Source: Flavipsychrobacter sp. (lineage in GTDB: Bacteria; Bacteroidota; Bacteroidia; Chitinophagales; Chitinophagaceae). From it: a stretch of DNA of 64,000 nucleotides. Location of the stretch: assembly GCA_021155965.1 (NCBI GenBank), contig JAJNBJ010000019.1, positions 1 to 64,000 on the forward strand, written 5' to 3'. Under the pieces are notes generated by a model. It did no database searches, was not told the origin of the DNA, and saw only the letters and a program-made list of their open reading frames with translations. Positions 1,546 to 9,335 of the stretch are shown here, piece after piece. How positions within the stretch are numbered: position 1 is the first letter of the stretch; the number at the start of each line of letters is the position of its first letter. Made by a program: the position numbers and the translations under genes.

Positions 1546-4500
1546 TTGGTAACCAGGTAAGCATTAGGAAGAGGGTCTATTGTAATAACTGCACTGCCGG
1601 TCATTGTGCCAAAGCAGCCGGTTGATGTATTAGTGCCAACCACCGTATATGTGCCAGCAGTTGTTTGGAGGCCAAAACTGATGGCAGAACCAGTACCAAT
1701 TACCGGGCTGCCAACTGCCGTAGAACCAAGGAACAGTTGATAACTTATACCGGAAGTAGATCCGCTCAATCCAACGTTTACACCTGCACCGCCGGAACAG
1801 TAGCTGCCAGTGCCGGTAACGGTATAGCTGGTTATGCCAGCCGCAGCATTAATAACCGCACTGCCGGTCATATTGCTGGTACATGCGTTTACGGTATTAG
1901 TTGCCACAGCCGTATAAGTGCCCAACGTTGTGAACATTCCAAAACTAATTGACGTACCGGCTCCAGGCACGGCGCTTCCAACAGGTGAGCCACCGCGATA
2001 CAGCTGGTATTGGATACCGATCGCAGAGCCTGCAAGGCCAATCGGCAAACCAGGGCCACCGCCGCACACCGAGCCTCCACCAGTCATTATAACCGGAGCA
2101 GGAGAAGTGAGTATGGAGACGACCGTACTACCCGACATTCCGTTCACACAGCCGGGCGCGGCGGTACTAGTTACCGTTACTGTGTACAATCCTGCTAATG
2201 GTTGCGCACCAAAACTTATTGCAGCACCGGTGCCAGCTACAGGGCTGCCTATTTGAGTTGAACCTCCTTTAATCAATTGGTAATTATATCCCGCGTTAGA
2301 ACCCGACAAGCCTATTGTGGCACCTGCCGTACCCGAACAGTAAGGGCCACCGCCAGTAACTGAATGAACACTTGAATACGGAGTTACTGTTACAGTAACT
2401 GTAGCCGCATTAGAACAACCAATGGCACTTGTACCTGTTACGGTATAAACAGTGGTTACAGTCGGCGTAGCAGTCACATTCGCACCTGTTGATGACGACA
2501 AACTTACCGCAGGTGCCCAGGCATAAGCAGAGGCACCGTTGGCTGTTAACCCGGTTGACAACCCGGTACATATAGCAACACTTGAACCTCCGCTCACGGT
2601 TGGAAGAGAATTAACACTAACCTGAACCGTAGCGGTACTGCCACATACGTCTGTTACTGTATAAGTGATTGTGGATGTTGGGTTAGCTGTTACGCTACTG
2701 CCGGTTGTTGCAGACAAGCCGGTAGAAGGTGACCACCTGTATGATGTACCACCCAAGGCCGTAAGTGTCGTAGATGAGCCATTACATATGGTAACATTTG
2801 AACCAGCACTTATAGGCGACGGGGTATAAACTGGAGCCAATGCATTTACAGTACCTGTTACCCAGTTTGATGCAGAGCCCGACAATGCAGAGTTGACCAG
2901 CGTAGCATTCCGGCCGTTACCGCTATAATCTATGGCTGTTGTCAACCCTGTATTAGTACCACTGGAAATACACTGGTCTAGTGTGTAATAAGCAACAAGG
3001 TTTGTCTGCGCACCATTCAATTTGCCTGACATATTGTTAACGATTTCTCCATCGCACAGTGCACGATTCCAGATGCGTATCTCATCAACCACACCATTCA
3101 AATACGCTCCGCTTCCCAAATTCGTTCCATCGTTTACACCGAAAAGAAGAAACAGTGCTGAGCCGGAACGTGACCATGTGCCCGTGGTAGAAGAAGATGA
3201 TGCCACGCCATCCAATAATCCGTCAAGTTTACTGGTAGTTGCATTATACCTGATAGCGGCATGGTGCCAGGTACCAAAAGTTATAAAGCCAAGGCTTACG
3301 GATGTGAGGCTCCAAACCCTTACTTTCACTTCGCCTGTGCCGAGTACTTCTATCCAGGTATCATGCCAGCCACTGCCAACTCCACCGGGCCCTTTTTCAA
3401 CAACTACATCGCCGGCTGCATTTGCTTTAAACCACAGATCAATTGTCATACTTGCGCTGCCACTTGAGAAACTGGACCACAGGTCTGGAGTGATCATATA
3501 ATCATTAGTGCCGTCGAAAGCGACGCCATTGTATCCACTTACGGTTATATTAGTTGTTGCGGAGTTGATGCATCCGAATCCGTTAGTAACTGTGTAACTA
3601 ATGCGGGCTGTACCTTCCGATACACCGGTTACAACGCCCGAGGTGCTATTAACAGTAGCCACACCTGTTGCCGAACTGGACCATACACCACTTGAAGTGG
3701 CATCGCTTAAAGTAGTCGTATTATATAATGTTAAAGTAGTTGTGCCGGTTATAGCCGAAACAGTTGGCAATGAGTTTACAGTTACCGTAACTGTGGCCGT
3801 ACCCGGACATCCTGCCGTATTAGTGCCGGTTACTGAATACGTAGTTGTAACGGTTGGTGAAGCTGTAACGCTGGTGCCGGTAGTCGAGGATAAACCTGCT
3901 GCAGGCGTCCATGTATAAGTGCTACCGCCACTCGCAGTTAGCGACGTGGAGTTGCCGGTACATATCGCAACGCTTGAACCTCCACTGATAGATGGAGTAG
4001 GATTTACTGTAATCGCAAATGTACCTGGTGTACCTGTACAGCCATTGGCAGATGGTGTTACGGTAACAGTCCCGGTTATCGCGGAGCCACCACTGTTGGT
4101 TGCAGTAAATGATGGCAGATTACCGGATGTAGTATAGGTAGCCTGTACATACAATTGCTTTGGCGTTCCCCCGCATGGGTCTCCAAATACTGCATTTGTA
4201 GCAGGTATTGATGCAGAGTTATTCCCAAGTAAATACCCTTGTACAATAGCCAAGCTGCCTGCAGCATGGCAACCACTAATTGCGTTACTACCACATGATC
4301 CTGTAGGCGTGCCATAGCTGGCAAAAGTGACAGACGTAAATACAGCTCCGGAAGGCGCCGTCATCACAACTGTACCGCCTTCTGCTGCGGTACCGCATAT
4401 TGTGCCTGATCCTGCGCCTAAACCAATCGCCGTATTGTTGTTTGCCCATGTGAATGTTGTACCACCCACAGGTCCGGAGAATACAACTGCGGATGTAGTT

Positions 4501-5756
4501 GCGCCGTTACAATAAGCAACATTTGAAATGCTGTTCACAGTGGGCAAAGGGTTTACGCTTACTTGCACTGTAGCTGTATTTACGCACCCATTGCTGTTTG
4601 TACCTGTTACGGTATAGATCGTTGTGCTGGTAGGATTGGCCGTTACACTTGTGCCTGTTGTAGCAGACAGGCCTGATCCCGGTGTCCAGGTATAAGTATT
4701 GCCACCACTGGCAGTGAGTGCTGTTGAACCGCCGCTGCATATTGTGACATTTGAACCGCCGCTGATCGTAGGCAACGCATTTACGCTTACTGTAACCGTC
4801 GCAGTATTAGAACAGCCGTTGGTACCGGTTACTGTATAGGTGGTAGTTACAGTCGGTGTGGCCGTTACACCAGCACCAGTAGATGCTGATAATGTAGATG
4901 AGGGGCTCCATGTATAGGTAAGGCCACCACTTGCGGTAATAGCAGCAGAATTGCCTATACAGATTGCCACATTCGAGCCTCCACTGATCGAGGGCAGCGA
5001 ACTGTTTACTGTCAACGTCACATTATTGCTTGATGTCATTGCACCGTTAGACTCAACAACCAGCACGCTATAAGTACCGGCATCACCTGATACAAGCGAA
5101 CTAATGTTGTATGTTGTATTTGTGGCCCCAATGATATTGACACCATTTTTACTCCACTGATAACTGATTGTATTTGCAGTATTGGTTGGCGTCGCAGCTA
5201 CAGACCATGTATAACTTTCTCCTACACATTTTGTTGCGCCCACAGGCTGAGTAGTAATGGTTGGAGGTGTAACCGGGGCGCTCGTACAACTTGTCCCTGA
5301 GCACCCCACATAGGTACAACTTGCATACACTGCACCGGTTGTTGGGTTCACATATACGATGGTGAAATTACCACTGGTAGGCAGGTTTACGTTGAAAAAA
5401 CAATAATCAATAGAACGGTCTCCACCAACAGTAGTAAATGCAGTTGGCGGCCCCATAACTGCAGTAGAGAGCGTTGTGCCCACATAAATTGCACTTACAG
5501 CAGGTTCAAAAGAAGGCGTTACAGTACCTGCATATACAGCCGTAAAATTCCCCTGTTTTGTAAGGGATGCACAGCAGGTCGAATACTGAAAAGCAGTACC
5601 GGGAACGTTTGTGGCCTGCGCCGGAGCTGAGCCGCCGGAGCCGGCGCAAACGCCAAGGTTATTTCCATTGTTACGGCTTTCGAATGTTGGGCACTGCGCA
5701 GACGCTAAATTGGCAAAAAGAACAATGCTACAAAGCAGGTACAAAATTTTTTTCAT
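1356..5756 (-). CDS. Giant secreted repeat protein, N-terminal part (Ig-like / LamG domains), frameshifted near its end
   Basis: A long open frame starting at an ATG with a clear signal peptide (MKKILYLLCSIVLFANLASA, cut before QCPTF). Domains in order: a Cys-containing N-terminal domain (about 22-155), one Ig-like domain with YQWSKNG (about 165-250), several Ig/PKD-like repeats of about 75 residues, a BIG2-like domain (about 666-740), a LamG/concanavalin-like domain starting GVAFDGTNDYM (about 743-965), two more Ig/PKD repeats, then a second repeat class of 85-90 residues with YCSGGxG and GTGxAISFG. The last ~60 residues, encoded below about 1545, are unlike any repeat because an out-of-frame deletion shifts the frame; the stop at 1356 is artefactual to the shift. 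Export through a type 9 secretion system and an adhesion role are inferred, since the C-terminus lies beyond the window. Confidence 0.8.
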   Translation of the reverse strand: MKKILYLLCSIVLFANLASAQCPTFESRNNGNNLGVCAGSGGSAPAQATNVPGTAFQYSTCCASLTKQGNFTAVYAGTVTPSFEPAVSAIYVGTTLSTAVMGPPTAFTTVGGDRSIDYCFFNVNLPTSGNFTIVYVNPTTGAVYASCTYVGCSGTSCTSAPVTPPTITTQPVGATKCVGESYTWSVAATPTNTANTISYQWSKNGVNIIGATNTTYNISSLVSGDAGTYSVLVVESNGAMTSSNNVTLTVNSSLPSISGGSNVAICIGNSAAITASGGLTYTWSPSSTLSASTGAGVTATPTVTTTYTVTGTNGCSNTATVTVSVNALPTISGGSNVTICSGGSTALTASGGNTYTWTPGSGLSATTGTSVTANPTSTTIYTVTGTNSNGCVNTATVQVSVNPLPTVNSISNVAYCNGATTSAVVFSGPVGGTTFTWANNNTAIGLGAGSGTICGTAAEGGTVVMTAPSGAVFTSVTFASYGTPTGSCGSNAISGCHAAGSLAIVQGYLLGNNSASIPATNAVFGDPCGGTPKQLYVQATYTTSGNLPSFTATNSGGSAITGTVTVTPSANGCTGTPGTFAITVNPTPSISGGSSVAICTGNSTSLTASGGSTYTWTPAAGLSSTTGTSVTASPTVTTTYSVTGTNTAGCPGTATVTVTVNSLPTVSAITGTTTLTLYNTTTLSDATSSGVWSSSATGVATVNSTSGVVTGVSEGTARISYTVTNGFGCINSATTNITVSGYNGVAFDGTNDYMITPDLWSSFSSGSASMTIDLWFKANAAGDVVVEKGPGGVGSGWHDTWIEVLGTGEVKVRVWSLTSVSLGFITFGTWHHAAIRYNATTSKLDGLLDGVASSSSTTGTWSRSGSALFLLFGVNDGTNLGSGAYLNGVVDEIRIWNRALCDGEIVNNMSGKLNGAQTNLVAYYTLDQCISSGTNTGLTTAIDYSGNGRNATLVNSALSGSASNWVTGTVNALAPVYTPSPISAGSNVTICNGSSTTLTALGGTSYRWSPSTGLSATTGSSVTANPTSTITYTVTDVCGSTATVQVSVNSLPTVSGGSSVAICTGLSTGLTANGASAYAWAPAVSLSSSTGANVTATPTVTTVYTVTGTSAIGCSNAATVTVTVTPYSSVHSVTGGGPYCSGTAGATIGLSGSNAGYNYQLIKGGSTQIGSPVAGTGAAISFGAQPLAGLYTVTVTSTAAPGCVNGMSGSTVVSILTSPAPVIMTGGGSVCGGGPGLPIGLAGSAIGIQYQLYRGGSPVGSAVPGAGTSISFGMFTTLGTYTAVATNTVNACTSNMTGSAVINAAAGITSYTVTGTGSYCSGGAGVNVGLSGSTSGISYQLFLGSTAVGSPVIGTGSAISFGLQTTAGTYTVVGTNTSTGCFGTMTGSAVITIDPLPNAYLVTKLVANRSRLSIVFGRIALRQPCCGNRFSAQLWLANSRWYLYYYSNQYNNNMYQFNGRQRNGIN
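1376..2390 (-). repeat. Second class of tandem coding repeats (~260 bp, GTGxAISFG type)
   Basis: Three full units of 85-90 codons and a fourth, shortened one. Each has a TVTGxGxYCSGG start, an LSGSxxGIxYQL middle, a GSPVxGTGxxISFG strand and a final Cys near MTGSAV. The fourth unit lacks roughly 44-47 bp between the tyrosine of its first strand and the LSQTG segment, which is where the reading frame is lost. Confidence 0.75.
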
Positions 5757-5823
5757 AAAAGGCTGAATTTGAGTAGTTTTTTATATTCAAATAATCTTGG
5801 TGCGCAAAAATGAAGAAAATATG

Positions 5824-5832
5824 TAGGCTTTA
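5824..5832. repeat. Target-site duplication, left copy (TAGGCTTTA)
   Basis: The 9-bp sequence TAGGCTTTA lies directly outside the left inverted terminus of the mobile element and recurs exactly at 8068-8076 outside the right terminus. Duplications of this size fit the 3-9 bp range reported for IS982-family insertions. Confidence 0.85.
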
Positions 5833-5853
5833 ACCCGTTGGCGGAATTAATTT
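5833..5853 (+). repeat. Left terminal inverted repeat
   Basis: 21 bp beginning ACCCGTTGGCGG, exactly complementary to 8047-8067. The identity stops at the next base on the inside, and the outside is the 9-bp target duplication. Confidence 0.85.
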
Positions 5854-5899
5854 AGAAATTAAAAATACTAACAAATCGGCATATTAGATGGGATTATGC

Positions 5900-6127
5900 C
5901 TATTCCTTTTCGATCTTAGCTTTTAATGCTTTGTAGGTGGTATCGTGAACTTTAGGATTTATCTCCTTTTCTATTTCTGTAGTATCTGCTCCCATCTGCT
6001 TTAATATCGTCAAAAGCAATCTGGTTTGCAGCCTAGCATTTTTAGCTGTCTTAGTAATTTCAAGTACTTGTTTTAAAATCGCATAGTGTACGATTGCGAT
6101 AATGATACCAATAACCAGGTATTCCAT
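5900..6127 (-). CDS. Small one-TM protein, passenger of the IS element
   Basis: A 75-residue protein beginning MEYLVIGIIIAIVHYAILKQ: one N-terminal membrane helix (about 3-20) followed by a charged, helical cytosolic tail rich in Lys and Glu. No family is recognised. It sits inside the inverted terminal repeats, between the left terminus and the transposase, on the same strand as the transposase. No strong ribosome-binding site is seen. It may be a cargo protein, or a spurious frame kept open by chance in a short element; its coherent helix-plus-charged-tail layout favours a real protein. Confidence 0.5.
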   Translation of the reverse strand: MEYLVIGIIIAIVHYAILKQVLEITKTAKNARLQTRLLLTILKQMGADTTEIEKEINPKVHDTTYKALKAKIEKE

Positions 6128-6369
6128 GTTTTGTGGTAATTAAGAGAATAAAAAATAGCGTAGCCGAAACTCTTTTGCTTCTCCAGGCTTACCACAGCCG
6201 CTTGACACAAAAGGAACAGCTACGCCATTATGGGCGCACTATTACAATCGTACTGTGTCAAGCCTGCTACACTTTATTTGTGGTAATTCGGAGAAGCAGT
6301 TTTGATTTTAATACTACAAAGTCTTTACATAGGCATTAATTGATCCACACAATATTAAGAAAAGTCACT
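6128..6369. other. Non-coding, inverted-repeat-rich segment inside the IS
   Basis: About 240 bp between the small membrane-protein gene and the transposase stop. Visible pairings are CTTGACACA near 6201 with TGTGTCAAG near 6256, and GCGTAG near 6154 with CTACGC near 6224. A TGTGGTAATT direct repeat occurs near 6133 and again near 6285. The segment lies downstream of the transposase and upstream of the small gene on the minus strand, so it could act as a terminator/leader or a structured RNA; no known family is recognised. Confidence 0.35.
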
Positions 6370-7281
6370 TTATTTATAGCATAGGGCATATTTTAAGCAG
6401 CCTACAGGTTTACCAGTAACGAACCTGTTTATGTATTGTAGTGCAGTCATTCCGCTAACTTTTGCTAATATCCTAGACCGATAACCAAAGAAAGATTTAG
6501 CATAATTCCGTTGCATCATAAACTGGTCACATAGCTGTGAGAATATAGTCTCTATTCTCTTGCGTATCCGTTTCAAAACATATGGAGCAGCTATAGCATT
6601 TTTCTGGTTATTCCGCAATGGTGTTTCCAGACATATCTTTCTAGTGCTCCAAAGATTGTCTTTTATACTCTGGTTGATATATCCCTTATCACCTACTACA
6701 ATGCAATTGCTTAATGCGTTTCCTACGTCTTTAAGAAAGTAAATATCATGTATGGAGGCCTTACCTATATCCATCAATTGTATTACTCCATTAGGAGCAC
6801 AAACACAATGCATCTTATAACCGTAATACCATTTATTCTGTGCCCTGCAATAACCTTTATCCGGTGCTGTATACTCCATCTCTTTTCCTATTTTGCTGCG
6901 TTCCATTCTTGCTAGTTTACAAATCTCTAATGGCATACTGTCTATTGCATATACTTCAGTTATATCGTTTAGCCTATCAGCCATTGCCTGCCTTACTACT
7001 GTCTGGTAATTGAACAATGACTTTCTACGATCATTGTATTGTCTCCGGCTTAACAGGTTAGGGAAGTCGTTTTTGTATTCGGTATGGAGGATTGTAAATA
7101 ACCTGTTCTCACTATCTATGCTCAGGCATTCGGCTGTAATGCTTAACGCTATAACTTCTATATCGGTAAATCTGGGTTTTAGGCCAGGACGTAAGAAGTT
7201 CCCTGTCTCAGGGCATTGAGTGCCAAGAGTTTCCTTTATAATAGGCAGTATCTTATCAAAAGCGGCTTTGATACTGTACAC
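6370..7281 (-). CDS. IS982-family transposase
   Basis: A 303-residue DDE transposase of the normal IS982 length. The first catalytic Asp lies in YAIDSMPLEICK, followed by the conserved R-SKI segment, then GYKMHCV, and the second Asp in VVGDKGYINQS. The third acidic residue is the Glu in RKRIETIFSQL, followed by the typical CDQFMMQRNYAKSFFGY and LQYINRFV tail seen in Bacteroidota members. All blocks are present and the frame is uninterrupted, so the enzyme may be active. It would cut and join the ACCC-starting termini at 5833 and 8067. A nested, smaller IS was considered, but no convincing inner termini were found. Confidence 0.9.
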   Translation of the reverse strand: MYSIKAAFDKILPIIKETLGTQCPETGNFLRPGLKPRFTDIEVIALSITAECLSIDSENRLFTILHTEYKNDFPNLLSRRQYNDRRKSLFNYQTVVRQAMADRLNDITEVYAIDSMPLEICKLARMERSKIGKEMEYTAPDKGYCRAQNKWYYGYKMHCVCAPNGVIQLMDIGKASIHDIYFLKDVGNALSNCIVVGDKGYINQSIKDNLWSTRKICLETPLRNNQKNAIAAPYVLKRIRKRIETIFSQLCDQFMMQRNYAKSFFGYRSRILAKVSGMTALQYINRFVTGKPVGCLKYALCYK

Positions 7282-7295
7282 AAGCAGAAAATCTT

Positions 7296-7325
7296 TGTTC
7301 TATCCAAGATTTTCCTTACATTTGT
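7296..7325 (+). promoter_or_regulatory. Bacteroidota-type promoter reading outward over the tRNA-like sequence
   Basis: TTTG at 7296-7299 and TACATTTG at 7318-7325 match the -33 TTTG / -7 TAnnTTTG pattern with about 18 bp between them. It points to the plus strand, away from the transposase start and antisense to the tRNA-like sequence and the 162-residue gene. No plus-strand gene follows, so it may produce an antisense RNA or be fortuitous. Confidence 0.35.
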
Positions 7326-7341
7326 AGTAAGGAAAAAATAG

Positions 7342-7410
7342 TGGAGGATACCGGAATCAAACCGGTTGCGTTAGGTCTCAAGTCTCCCGCAGAACATCAG
7401 TCCATCCCCC
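7342..7410 (-). other. tRNA-like sequence (degenerate) inside the IS
   Basis: On the minus strand, GGGGGAT at the 5' end pairs with ATCCTCC at the 3' end (six Watson-Crick pairs and one G-T), followed by a discriminator A. A T-arm is clear: stem ACCGG/CCGGT around the seven-base loop TTTGATT, close to the TTCRANY consensus. A GGAC/GTTC pairing could be a short D-arm. The middle holds GACTTGAGACC, resembling an anticodon loop, but the anticodon stem does not pair. The total length is 69 nt, a few bases short, so this looks like a decayed or atypical tRNA rather than a functional one. Confidence 0.4.
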
Positions 7411-7479
7411 TAAGTTTTTTACTAACATTTAGAAAGTCTTGCGCGTCCTCGAAAAACAGCAAGACTTTCTTTTTTATTC

Positions 7480-7968
7480 CTAATCAGGTAAAAACTCAGA
7501 TTTACAATCTCCGTTTTCATCAAACCATTCTAACAGTCCGTAGTAGTAATATTTAATATCCTTGTCTAACTTATCTCTTTGAAAAATCCTGTCTAAATTC
7601 TGTTTAAGTAAGCCTGCTAAATTCGATTTAGCATTAGTATACGTTTCTCCCTCGTCACTAATGCTAGTATCGTTGTATTTCTCTTTTGCCAGTGTAAGTA
7701 TTTGAGTAAGTGTTAAGAGTTTCTTTTTTCTTGAAAGAATAAACTTGGCCTTTTTAGTCCAGCTCCATTCCTCGTTGTAATCAACTCGCTTTATTTCGCT
7801 GGGCAATAGCTTTCCGCCATTTAATGCTTTGAGTATTGCACGTTCTTTTTCAATAGCAGATTCAGTTTCTTCTTTAATTTTTATGAGATCAGTAAGTCTT
7901 TGCTTAGTAGCCTGCTTTAAGAGTGCAAGCGTTTCGGGAGAGAAATTAATAGTTATTTGTTCCGACAT
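7480..7968 (-). CDS. Coiled-coil / winged-helix-like protein, IS passenger
   Basis: 162 residues. The N-terminal half (about 1-55) is a long amphipathic helix rich in Glu and Lys (LLKQATKQRLTDLIKIKEET), likely a coiled coil. The second half, starting WSWTKKAKFILSRKKK (about 68-150), has the helix-helix-strand layout of a winged helix and recalls HARE-HTH-type domains. It ends in a YYYYGLLEW strand. No catalytic motif is visible. Upstream bases of the start fit a minus-strand unit reading toward the transposase. Possible roles are regulation of transposition or cargo; the similarity is by eye only. Confidence 0.6.
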   Translation of the reverse strand: MSEQITINFSPETLALLKQATKQRLTDLIKIKEETESAIEKERAILKALNGGKLLPSEIKRVDYNEEWSWTKKAKFILSRKKKLLTLTQILTLAKEKYNDTSISDEGETYTNAKSNLAGLLKQNLDRIFQRDKLDKDIKYYYYGLLEWFDENGDCKSEFLPD

Positions 7969-8046
7969 GGAAACAAATGTAGGAGTATTTTTGAAATTTT
8001 ATCTAGTTTTTTAATTTTTCTAGATAATTTATTTAAGAATAGATTA

Positions 8047-8067
8047 AAATTAATTCCGCCAACGGGT
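8047..8067 (-). repeat. Right terminal inverted repeat
   Basis: The reverse complement of 5833-5853, identical over 21 bp and ending CCAACGGGT at the outer edge. The next base outward starts the 9-bp target duplication. Confidence 0.85.
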
Positions 8068-8076
8068 TAGGCTTTA
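8068..8076. repeat. Target-site duplication, right copy (TAGGCTTTA)
   Basis: An exact copy of 5824-5832, directly outside the right inverted terminus. Confidence 0.85.
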
Positions 8077-8230
8077 CATATTTTTATTATCCACAAAACA
8101 CATATTTATATATATACATTAATTTTATTATTTTTTATAAATGATAAGTTAATAACAAGTAATTAATTAATTTTTATAATTATAAACAATATAATTTGCT
8201 TATAAATTATCTGGTTGTTAACAAAAAGGT
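8077..8230. other. Very AT-rich gene-free stretch
   Basis: About 150 bp composed largely of A and T, with runs such as TAATTAATTAATTTTTATAA and no reading frame that looks coding. It lies between the IS and the Cys-rich peptide zone. It could serve as promoter or curved DNA, but no clear promoter box was assigned. Confidence 0.5.
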
Positions 8231-9054: not shown

Positions 9055-9325
9055 AGTGTTTTTTGCCGATTCCGCTTATACAGACTATAGCATAGAGGAC
9101 AACTTCATGGATGCCGAATCTGTAAGAATGATGGTACATCGTAAAAGTAATAGCAAACGCCCCGACCAGCCTCTATTGTAAAGACTGTATGAGAAAAATA
9201 ATGGAAACTACCTTTTCAGAGGTAAAAGCACTATTTTTAAGAAAAGTACATGCCGTTACTTTCAAAAGGATTTTTAATAAAATTGTTGATGTTCATTATG
9301 GCTACAACCTTAGCTACCGACTTTG
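9055..9325 (+). pseudogene. Remnant of an IS982-type transposase, C-terminal part
   Basis: The frame continues as FFADSAYTDYSIEDNF and MMVHRKSNSKRPDQP to a stop at 9179-9181. It resumes in another frame as RKIMETTFSEVKALFLRKVH, AVTFKRIF and a YNLSY-like end. These match the GDKAYTDY, RKKNSKRP and ETxFSxIxxLxPxxIHAVT blocks of IS982-family transposases that differ from the intact one at 6370. The catalytic Asp block is altered (ADSAY), there is a frameshift, and the N-terminal two thirds are missing. Confidence 0.6.
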
Positions 9326-9335
9326 ATTTATCATT

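Follow-up and report, generated by a model that had tools for sequence, protein, structure and literature searches.

Oversize IS982 element with cargo genes and a structured RNA in Flavipsychrobacter sp.

The 64,000-nt stretch of Flavipsychrobacter sp. DNA analyzed here (contig JAJNBJ010000019.1, positions 1 to 64,000, hereafter the window) holds an oversize element of the insertion sequence (IS) family IS982 at positions 5833-8067, 2,235 bp long, with identical 21-bp inverted ends and a 9-bp target duplication on its flanks. The element probably belongs to a cargo-bearing ("transporter") IS982 lineage that moves a gene together with its own cis-acting leader RNA, a reading to which we give a probability of about 0.7. 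The transposases of the four oversize elements found form one clade, and all four elements (4/4) carry a structured RNA followed by an open reading frame (ORF) for a secreted or membrane protein. The RNA is the more surprising part, and structurally it is secure as a family.

Anatomy and relatives of the element

The borders and the transposase gene, as computed, are the following:

5824..5832, no strand: left target-site duplication TAGGCTTTA; the same 9-mer recurs at 8068-8076
5833..5853, plus strand: left terminal inverted repeat ACCCGTTGGCGGAATTAATTT, an end shared by the relatives
6370..7281, minus strand: IS982-family DDE transposase, 303 aa, open, GTG start, NCBIfam IS982 match
8047..8067, minus strand: right terminal inverted repeat, 21/21 identical to the left end
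8068..8076, no strand: right target-site duplication TAGGCTTTA

These parts agree with an earlier sequence-only reading of the window, which had described exact inverted ends, a flanking 9-bp duplication and an intact IS982-type transposase inside an oversized unit of 2,235 bp. The transposase matched NCBIfam IS982 (NF033520) with 223.6 bits (cut-off 130, E 2.8e-66), and the published family length is 845-1282 bp in the parts of the 2020 review drawn on here (PMC7335449). The presumed catalytic triad D114, D198 and E244, assigned by motif and not by structure, is invariant across the four oversize transposases, and the residues six and seven positions after the E are L and C, with no K/R there, as IS982 requires. 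The ends start with AC (ACCCGTTGG...), as in the family, and the duplications of 9, 8 and 9 bp in three of the elements fall within its 2-10 bp range (the fourth, L170, has none). The end consensus AC(N)6T(N)5TT was not matched in full: A1, C2, T15 and T16 fit, and position 9 is G. This does not set the element apart from IS982, because its plain sisters and several IS982 elements of the Bacteroides group share the end. The departure from a standard IS982 lies in the length and in the cargo beside the transposase. The element is present once in its own 50-contig assembly, and the flanking DNA, searched for an empty site, was found in none of 34 other genomes of the genus.

A transposase search of 99 genomes (own included) matched 8, including two other full-length relatives near 60% identity. 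The element of Terrimonas ferruginea (L003) is 2,411 bp long, with the same ends and its own 8-bp duplication, and follows the part order of the window: a 169-aa ORF, a terminator-like hairpin, a tRNA-like stretch, the transposase, the structured RNA and a secreted-protein-like ORF. A plain element of 1 kb, L004, has these ends as well. An end-pattern search of 394 genomes of the window's family matched 15 and brought up L043 (UBA1930), an element of 2,261 bp with the same ends, a related transposase and the 9-bp duplication TGGTATAGT; it has the transposase-RNA-ORF part in common, plus two different ORFs upstream, and no counterpart to the 162-aa passenger of the window (see below) or to the tRNA-like stretch was seen in it. 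The fourth transposase came from an IMG/VR contig (L170), so that the range so far is Chitinophagaceae and one viral contig.

In a tree of 20 transposases the four oversize ones formed one clade (support 100/99), sister (97/97) to those of plain ~1-kb Chitinophagaceae IS982. The concern that the termini might belong to an unrelated ~1-kb IS did not materialize, since the 1-kb sisters with the same ends are a separate clade without cargo, and an ordinary nested IS was rejected in view of relatives with the same ends, their own 8- or 9-bp duplications and a single transposase clade. Across 80 public IS982 loci plus those of the window and the viral contig, most measurable elements are ~0.97-1.05 kb long. 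An order-wide transposase search of 396 genomes (E<=1e-70) matched only 6, namely the three known ones, a decayed copy of plain length (G361, L281) and two that are more distant; the oversize lineage is therefore rare in the sampled genomes. The question whether the same two passengers lie between these ends elsewhere was answered in part: cargo between the same ends recurs, but not the same pair, the 162-aa protein having a counterpart only in L003 and the small ORF being different each time. What stands of the proposed new element type is thus an IS982 transposon with cargo, of a kind that the literature consulted here does not describe, without the two-passenger set as shared cargo and without a recognizable tRNA.

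A search for the ends among viral contigs yielded 12 stretches, spread over 11 contigs; RNA model R2 (see below) found the RNA in none of the 12, and no passenger match appeared among the contigs scanned. Besides the known contig, viral transposase relatives reached 44-45% identity (L270, L272, L277), and a 74-residue fragment at a contig edge 53% (L276).

Several other end-bearing loci were seen along the way. Solo copies of the ends exist, as do end-to-end derivatives of 501, 221 and 274 bp (L045 2882-3382, L050 3287-3507, L052 598-871), two of them with 8-bp duplications. An end pair spans 2,210 bp in L084, and an IS982 element of 1,480 bp, longer than usual, lies in Bacteroides heparinolyticus (L076 1013-2492), where the ~470 bases after the transposase hold only TCTTCGTATC-like short repeats under a 65-aa ORF. 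In the window itself, ~1 kb from the element, two ORF fragments at 9056-9326 (ADSAYTDY..., METTFSEVKALF...) resemble, by eye, a decayed DDE transposase of another kind.

The structured RNA and its family

Between the transposase and the membrane ORF lies a strongly folded RNA (z -5.03, 0/200 shuffles) which the sequence-only reading had overlooked. The stretch after the transposase folds far better than its shuffles in the relatives too, with z-scores of -5.0 in the window, -6.6 in L003 and -7.1 in L043, and the following ORF starts 15-38 nt behind the RNA in the four IS982 elements. Two covariance models were used, one built from the L003 RNA alone (R1) and one from 22 sequences (R2). The parts of the window RNA are:

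6144..6298, minus strand: structured, putative leader RNA, then a U-rich run; R1 21.5 bits (E 0.089), R2 22.8 bits
6290-6297/6177-6184, minus strand: stem P1
6279-6286/6189-6196, minus strand: stem P2
6254-6263/6200-6209, minus strand: stem P3
6219-6225/6158-6164, minus strand: pseudoknot P6, GCGUAGC/GCUACGC
6197-6199/6186-6188, minus strand: P5 core GGC/GCC, read from the sequence
6130..6141, minus strand: AATTACCACAAA immediately ahead of the start codon, a repeat of the 6277-6288 stretch that holds the 5' strand of P2

R1 detected the L043 RNA with 41.4 bits (E 7e-6) and, at E<=0.01, matched 101 of the 394 family genomes. At E<=1e-4, R2 matched 37 of 296 genomes across the phylum, in 13 families. 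Such strict filters lose weak members, since the window's own genome, negative in the phylum-wide search, yields a 55-bit copy when searched alone (G000:C23:56765-56913, or L284 1501-1649); this copy lies between a 418-aa ORF of the phage integrase family and an ORF that is lipoprotein-like by eye, and leads the latter. Rfam 15 had no match at E<=1 in window 5700-8200, and its five hits on ten RNA-bearing loci (L171-L180), one tRNA above cut-off and four sub-cut-off miRNA-type, did not overlap the RNA, so a known Rfam RNA was rejected.

Covariation is strong and argues for the proposed structure. With 22 sequences, 98.2% of the cells were paired and two-sided changes occurred in 25 of 33 pairs; with 62 sequences the values were 97.0% and 30/33. 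When two pseudoknots replaced P4 in the 62 sequences, 96.6% of the cells were paired, with two-sided changes in 33 of 35 pairs, a level that none of 500 shuffles reached and that fell to at most 42.9% paired when the partners were slid; the alignments had been fitted to P1-P4, which favours those stems, and not to the pseudoknots. P6 pairs the apical strand GCGUGGG with the tail CCCACGC ahead of the U-run, and several distant members have other P6 sequences with the pairing kept (by eye). As the same apical strand serves P4 and P6, the two are mutually exclusive. Pairs of both show two-sided changes, 5/8 in the version with P1-P4 and 6/7 in the pseudoknot version. At least six T within the 10 nt after the tail were present in 62/62 members, compared with 11% of background windows, a contrast that the model's own tail favours. 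Overall, it is well supported that the RNA exists in Bacteroidota as a pseudoknotted structured family, apparently uncatalogued. The RNAs of the window and L170 are a divergent subtype: among 24 members tested, only these two have the start-codon copy of the P2 strand, the complementarity of this site to the 3' strand of P2 being 8 nt in the window, 7 nt in L170 and 2-4 nt in the 22 others.

As a background, R2 gave seven hits in the 80 IS982 loci (538 kb): two known elements, two further strong hits outside the IS, two antisense echoes and one weak hit. The two strong hits outside are RNA members near plain IS982 copies in Marinoscillum (L067 5863-6013) and Bacteroides faecalis (L104 2056-2217).

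The surroundings of the RNA were compared at 62 loci (L003, L043, 20 family loci, most of them top-scoring, and 40 of 62 listed phylum matches), a sample that leans to strong scores; ORFs were called by script with ATG starts only. At 22 of the 62, a same-strand ORF of 60 aa or more begins no further than 65 nt from the RNA. In a Pfam scan of 53 of the 59 usable upstream ORFs, HTH_3 was found in 18 and an IS1595 transposase in 2. Downstream, 37 of the 49 usable ORFs together with the window ORF (the 12 left out being mostly very short) gave CarbopepD_reg_2 (4), Sigma70_r2 (4), Plug (3) and RibD_C (2). At L194, L197, L205-L209, L216-L223 and other loci the RNA often has a small, frequently helix-turn-helix (HTH) gene divergently upstream, and extracytoplasmic function (ECF) sigma or TonB/CarboxypepD_reg genes downstream, while an nSTAND3 protein is encoded upstream of it at L221. 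Looking for a retron or guide-RNA partner in the nearest ORF on each side, we found no reverse transcriptase or RNA-guided nuclease among the families listed for the 38 downstream ORFs and the 25 listed of the 30 upstream families (53 ORFs).

The RNA also travels in unrelated transposons. A scan of the 62 loci for inverted repeats with an outside duplication gave three real positives, as opposed to 0/62 for block-shuffled loci: two known IS982 elements and an IS1595 element of 2,636 bp (L199 2508-5143; TTACAGTA, 8-bp duplication) that carries the RNA and an ORF. Forty of the loci extend at most ~1.7 kb per side, so larger elements would be missed. Scanning eight RNA loci in larger windows gave one, a second IS1595 element of 5,760 bp with RNA and ORF (L256 1929-7688; TTAATTTT, 8-bp duplication), and none at L170. 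Pfam recognized the transposases of L199, L256 and L203 as DDE_Tnp_IS1595; at L203/L257 the transposase adjoins the RNA, and no element ends were found.

Passenger proteins, tRNA-like stretch and hairpins

The remaining features of the element are:

5900..6127, minus strand: cargo ORF, 75 aa, one apparent N-terminal membrane helix (by eye), 16 nt from the RNA core
7310..7336, minus strand: perfect hairpin TTTTCCTTAC/GTAAGGAAAA between the tRNA-like stretch and the transposase; a similar hairpin lies in the same place in L003
7342..7410, minus strand: tRNA-like stretch, degenerate
7431..7470, minus strand: terminator-like hairpin, 12 bp, downstream of the 162-aa ORF
7480..7968, minus strand: cargo ORF, 162 aa, with a coiled coil and a winged-helix-like C-terminal part (by eye), a member of an accessory protein family of the genus

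Both passenger ORFs of the sequence-only reading exist, their helix, coiled-coil and winged-helix traits being judged by eye. Neither had a Pfam or NCBIfam match above cut-off, and PHROGs and PADLOC gave nothing better than E 0.017 for the two, with no match at E<=1 for the 75-aa ORF. The ORFs behind the RNA in the four elements differ in length (75, 137, 127 and 217 aa). Homologues of the 162-aa protein turned up at E<=0.01 in 15 of 148 other genomes (best E 2.9e-6). A profile of 14 of them scored 40.7 bits for the window protein, a figure partly circular because the 14 were found with that protein, and 15.0 bits for the Terrimonas protein, while 400 shuffled controls stayed at or below 6.4 bits. 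Compared directly, the window and L003 passengers reached only E 0.002; this type of passenger occurs in 2 of the 4 oversize elements, the L003 counterpart being distant. At five of the 15 homologue loci, Pfam identified HsdM-type methylase, AbiEii, HipA, WYL and Fic proteins as neighbours. For the 162-aa protein, AlphaFold gave only a poor model when run on two sequences (pLDDT 47.9). The motif TACATTTG, which we take to be a Bacteroidota -7 type promoter box, stands shortly before the passenger gene in both elements (window 7974-7981, L003 778-785), in L003 as the sole match, where 0.21 are expected by chance.

The tRNA-like sequence did not hold up as a tRNA gene: ARAGORN made no call, and the Rfam tRNA score was 14.4 bits, below the cut-off of 29. 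Together with its neighbouring hairpin the stretch folds well (window 7335-7475, minus strand, z -4.79). The same place in L003 gave a tRNA-Sec-like match of 18.6 bits, with a cut-off of 47, and again no ARAGORN call. A similar loop (~GTTTTnGnnGACnG) on different stems recurs, as judged by eye, in terminator-like hairpins ahead of the tRNA-like or transposase region (window ~7443-7458, L003 ~1322-1358, L134 ~3383-3419).

Proposed mechanism, alternatives and known systems

The DDE transposase would recognize both ACCCGTTGGCGGAATTAA ends and move the whole 2.2-kb unit with a target duplication of 8-9 bp; this competence for end-to-end movement is suggested by the ends and the duplications. The shared cargo downstream of the transposase would then be a structured RNA of ~150 nt and, within 15-38 nt, a variable gene for a small protein, presumably secreted or membrane-bound. 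Most likely, the RNA acts in cis as a leader that decides on the expression of the cargo gene. Its apical strand GCGUGGG (GCGUAGC in the window) has two possible partners, a local one (P4) and the 3' tail before the U-run (P6), and we infer from these competing pairings that P6 with the U-run may be the off state and P4 the on state of a switch that acts on transcription or translation. The start codon could also be masked by the repeated P2 strand next to it in the window and L170.

Several findings weigh against this reading. No more than four oversize elements came to light, each the only one in its genome or contig; in L170 the matching ends are 8,190 bp apart without a target duplication, so that it may be a rearranged pair of ends, and its RNA follows the transposase at a distance of 2.7 kb. 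R2 matches the window RNA weakly (E 0.028) and did not pick up the L170 RNA at any E up to 1, so both rest on R1 (~21 bits, E ~0.09 each), on position and on the located stems. An antisense echo of L003 itself scores 37.4 bits in R1, above that level, as long hairpins score on both strands. Moreover, 40 of the 62 loci have no ORF of at least 60 aa within 65 nt of the RNA, and at 37 of the 62 a divergent ORF starts 100-200 nt upstream, an arrangement that would suit a free-standing RNA too.

Such a free-standing RNA, acting in trans on distant targets or as the RNA antitoxin of a neighbouring small protein, would end at its own terminator, with the ORF as a mere neighbour or as toxin partner. 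We consider it unlikely but a live rival, because of the many loci without a close ORF and the frequent divergent HTH gene. The P6 tail runs into a T-rich stretch in 62/62 members, HTH_3 in 18 of 53 upstream ORFs is as for a separately controlled RNA gene, and the window ORF resembles a small membrane protein with a single helix, a form that type I toxins often take. On the other hand, a same-strand ORF lies close behind the RNA at 22 of the 62 loci, and at 15-38 nt in the four IS982 elements, and the ORFs there vary widely, from ECF sigma factors to TonB plug proteins and RibD_C, which speaks against a fixed toxin partner. That the cargo is a defence or addiction module, made of a small membrane effector, the RNA and a DNA-binding protein with the IS only as its vehicle, is improbable: the five checked neighbours of the 162-aa homologues and the nSTAND3 protein at L221 fit it, whereas the PADLOC result, the presence of the 162-aa type in only 2/4 elements and the absence of a common family among the downstream proteins do not.

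It is very unlikely that the element is a chance composite of host DNA caught between an IS982 copy and a second isolated end, and hence no heritable type. The missing duplication of L170, the solo ends and the short end-to-end derivatives (221-501 bp) would agree with it, but perfect outside duplications, a common transposase-RNA-ORF order and transposases of one clade unite three of the elements. A role of the RNA in transposition itself, as a guide or structural RNA of the transposase in an RNA-assisted DDE element, appears extremely improbable; the RNA does lie downstream of the transposase in 4/4 oversize elements, but plain sisters with the same ends lack it (R2 hits inside an element only in L054 and L057 among the 80 IS982 loci), and it is also present in IS1595 elements and at many loci where the closest ORF upstream encodes no transposase.

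With the cargo-bearing IS982 lineage and its cis-acting leader as the preferred reading, a wider one can be put forward tentatively, at somewhat less than even odds: a portable regulatory cassette, in which unrelated transposons (IS982, IS1595 and perhaps tyrosine-integrase elements) would carry a gene pre-wired to the leader RNA, so that the cargo would come under a regulation shared throughout the host, to which resident HTH, ECF-sigma and TonB-receptor loci are subject as well. IS982 elements, treated as bare 1-kb insertion sequences, have given rise to a cargo-carrying lineage. A conserved complex RNA goes with the cargo genes of two or more unrelated IS families and is found again at numerous further loci in Bacteroidota. 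Should the RNA prove to be a switch, it would explain in a testable way how cargo genes of small transposons stay under control in a new host, and it would add a new class of regulatory RNA in the phylum.

Among known systems, the candidate structured RNAs of the human microbiome, in the part of that report used here (PMC8040213), likewise have HTH-XRE among the commonest neighbours and include Bacteroidetes candidates, one near TonB; the comparison is by description only, and they may overlap with the present family. Pseudoknotted leaders of type I toxin mRNAs, as outlined in PMC11228461, resemble it in that a pseudoknotted leader precedes a small membrane protein, but differ, at this level of outline, in that the gene behind the present RNA varies widely. 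The IS1595 elements with passengers (L199, L256) carry the same RNA and then an ORF with a signal-peptide-like start (by eye), with an unrelated transposase (DDE_Tnp_IS1595) and unrelated ends (GGTAAYTAYATAC...). With the IS982 family, e.g., IS1187 of Bacteroides, the window element shares the transposase family, the ends starting with AC, a duplication of 8-9 bp within the 2-10 bp stated in the excerpted text (PMC7335449), the presumed DDE triad and the lack of K/R 6-7 residues after the E; it differs by its 2.2 kb, its structured RNA and two further genes, and its separate transposase clade. The words passenger, cargo and accessory are absent from the main text of that review, and open-literature searches, within the text openly available, turned up no report of passengers in IS982. 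A parallel in design is the transporter IS, an IS with passenger genes (PMC3129680), which likewise has a single transposase and, between the IS ends, genes that play no part in transposition; no IS982 case of it was found in the literature searched, and the window lineage is distinguished by a conserved putative leader RNA that marks its cargo gene.

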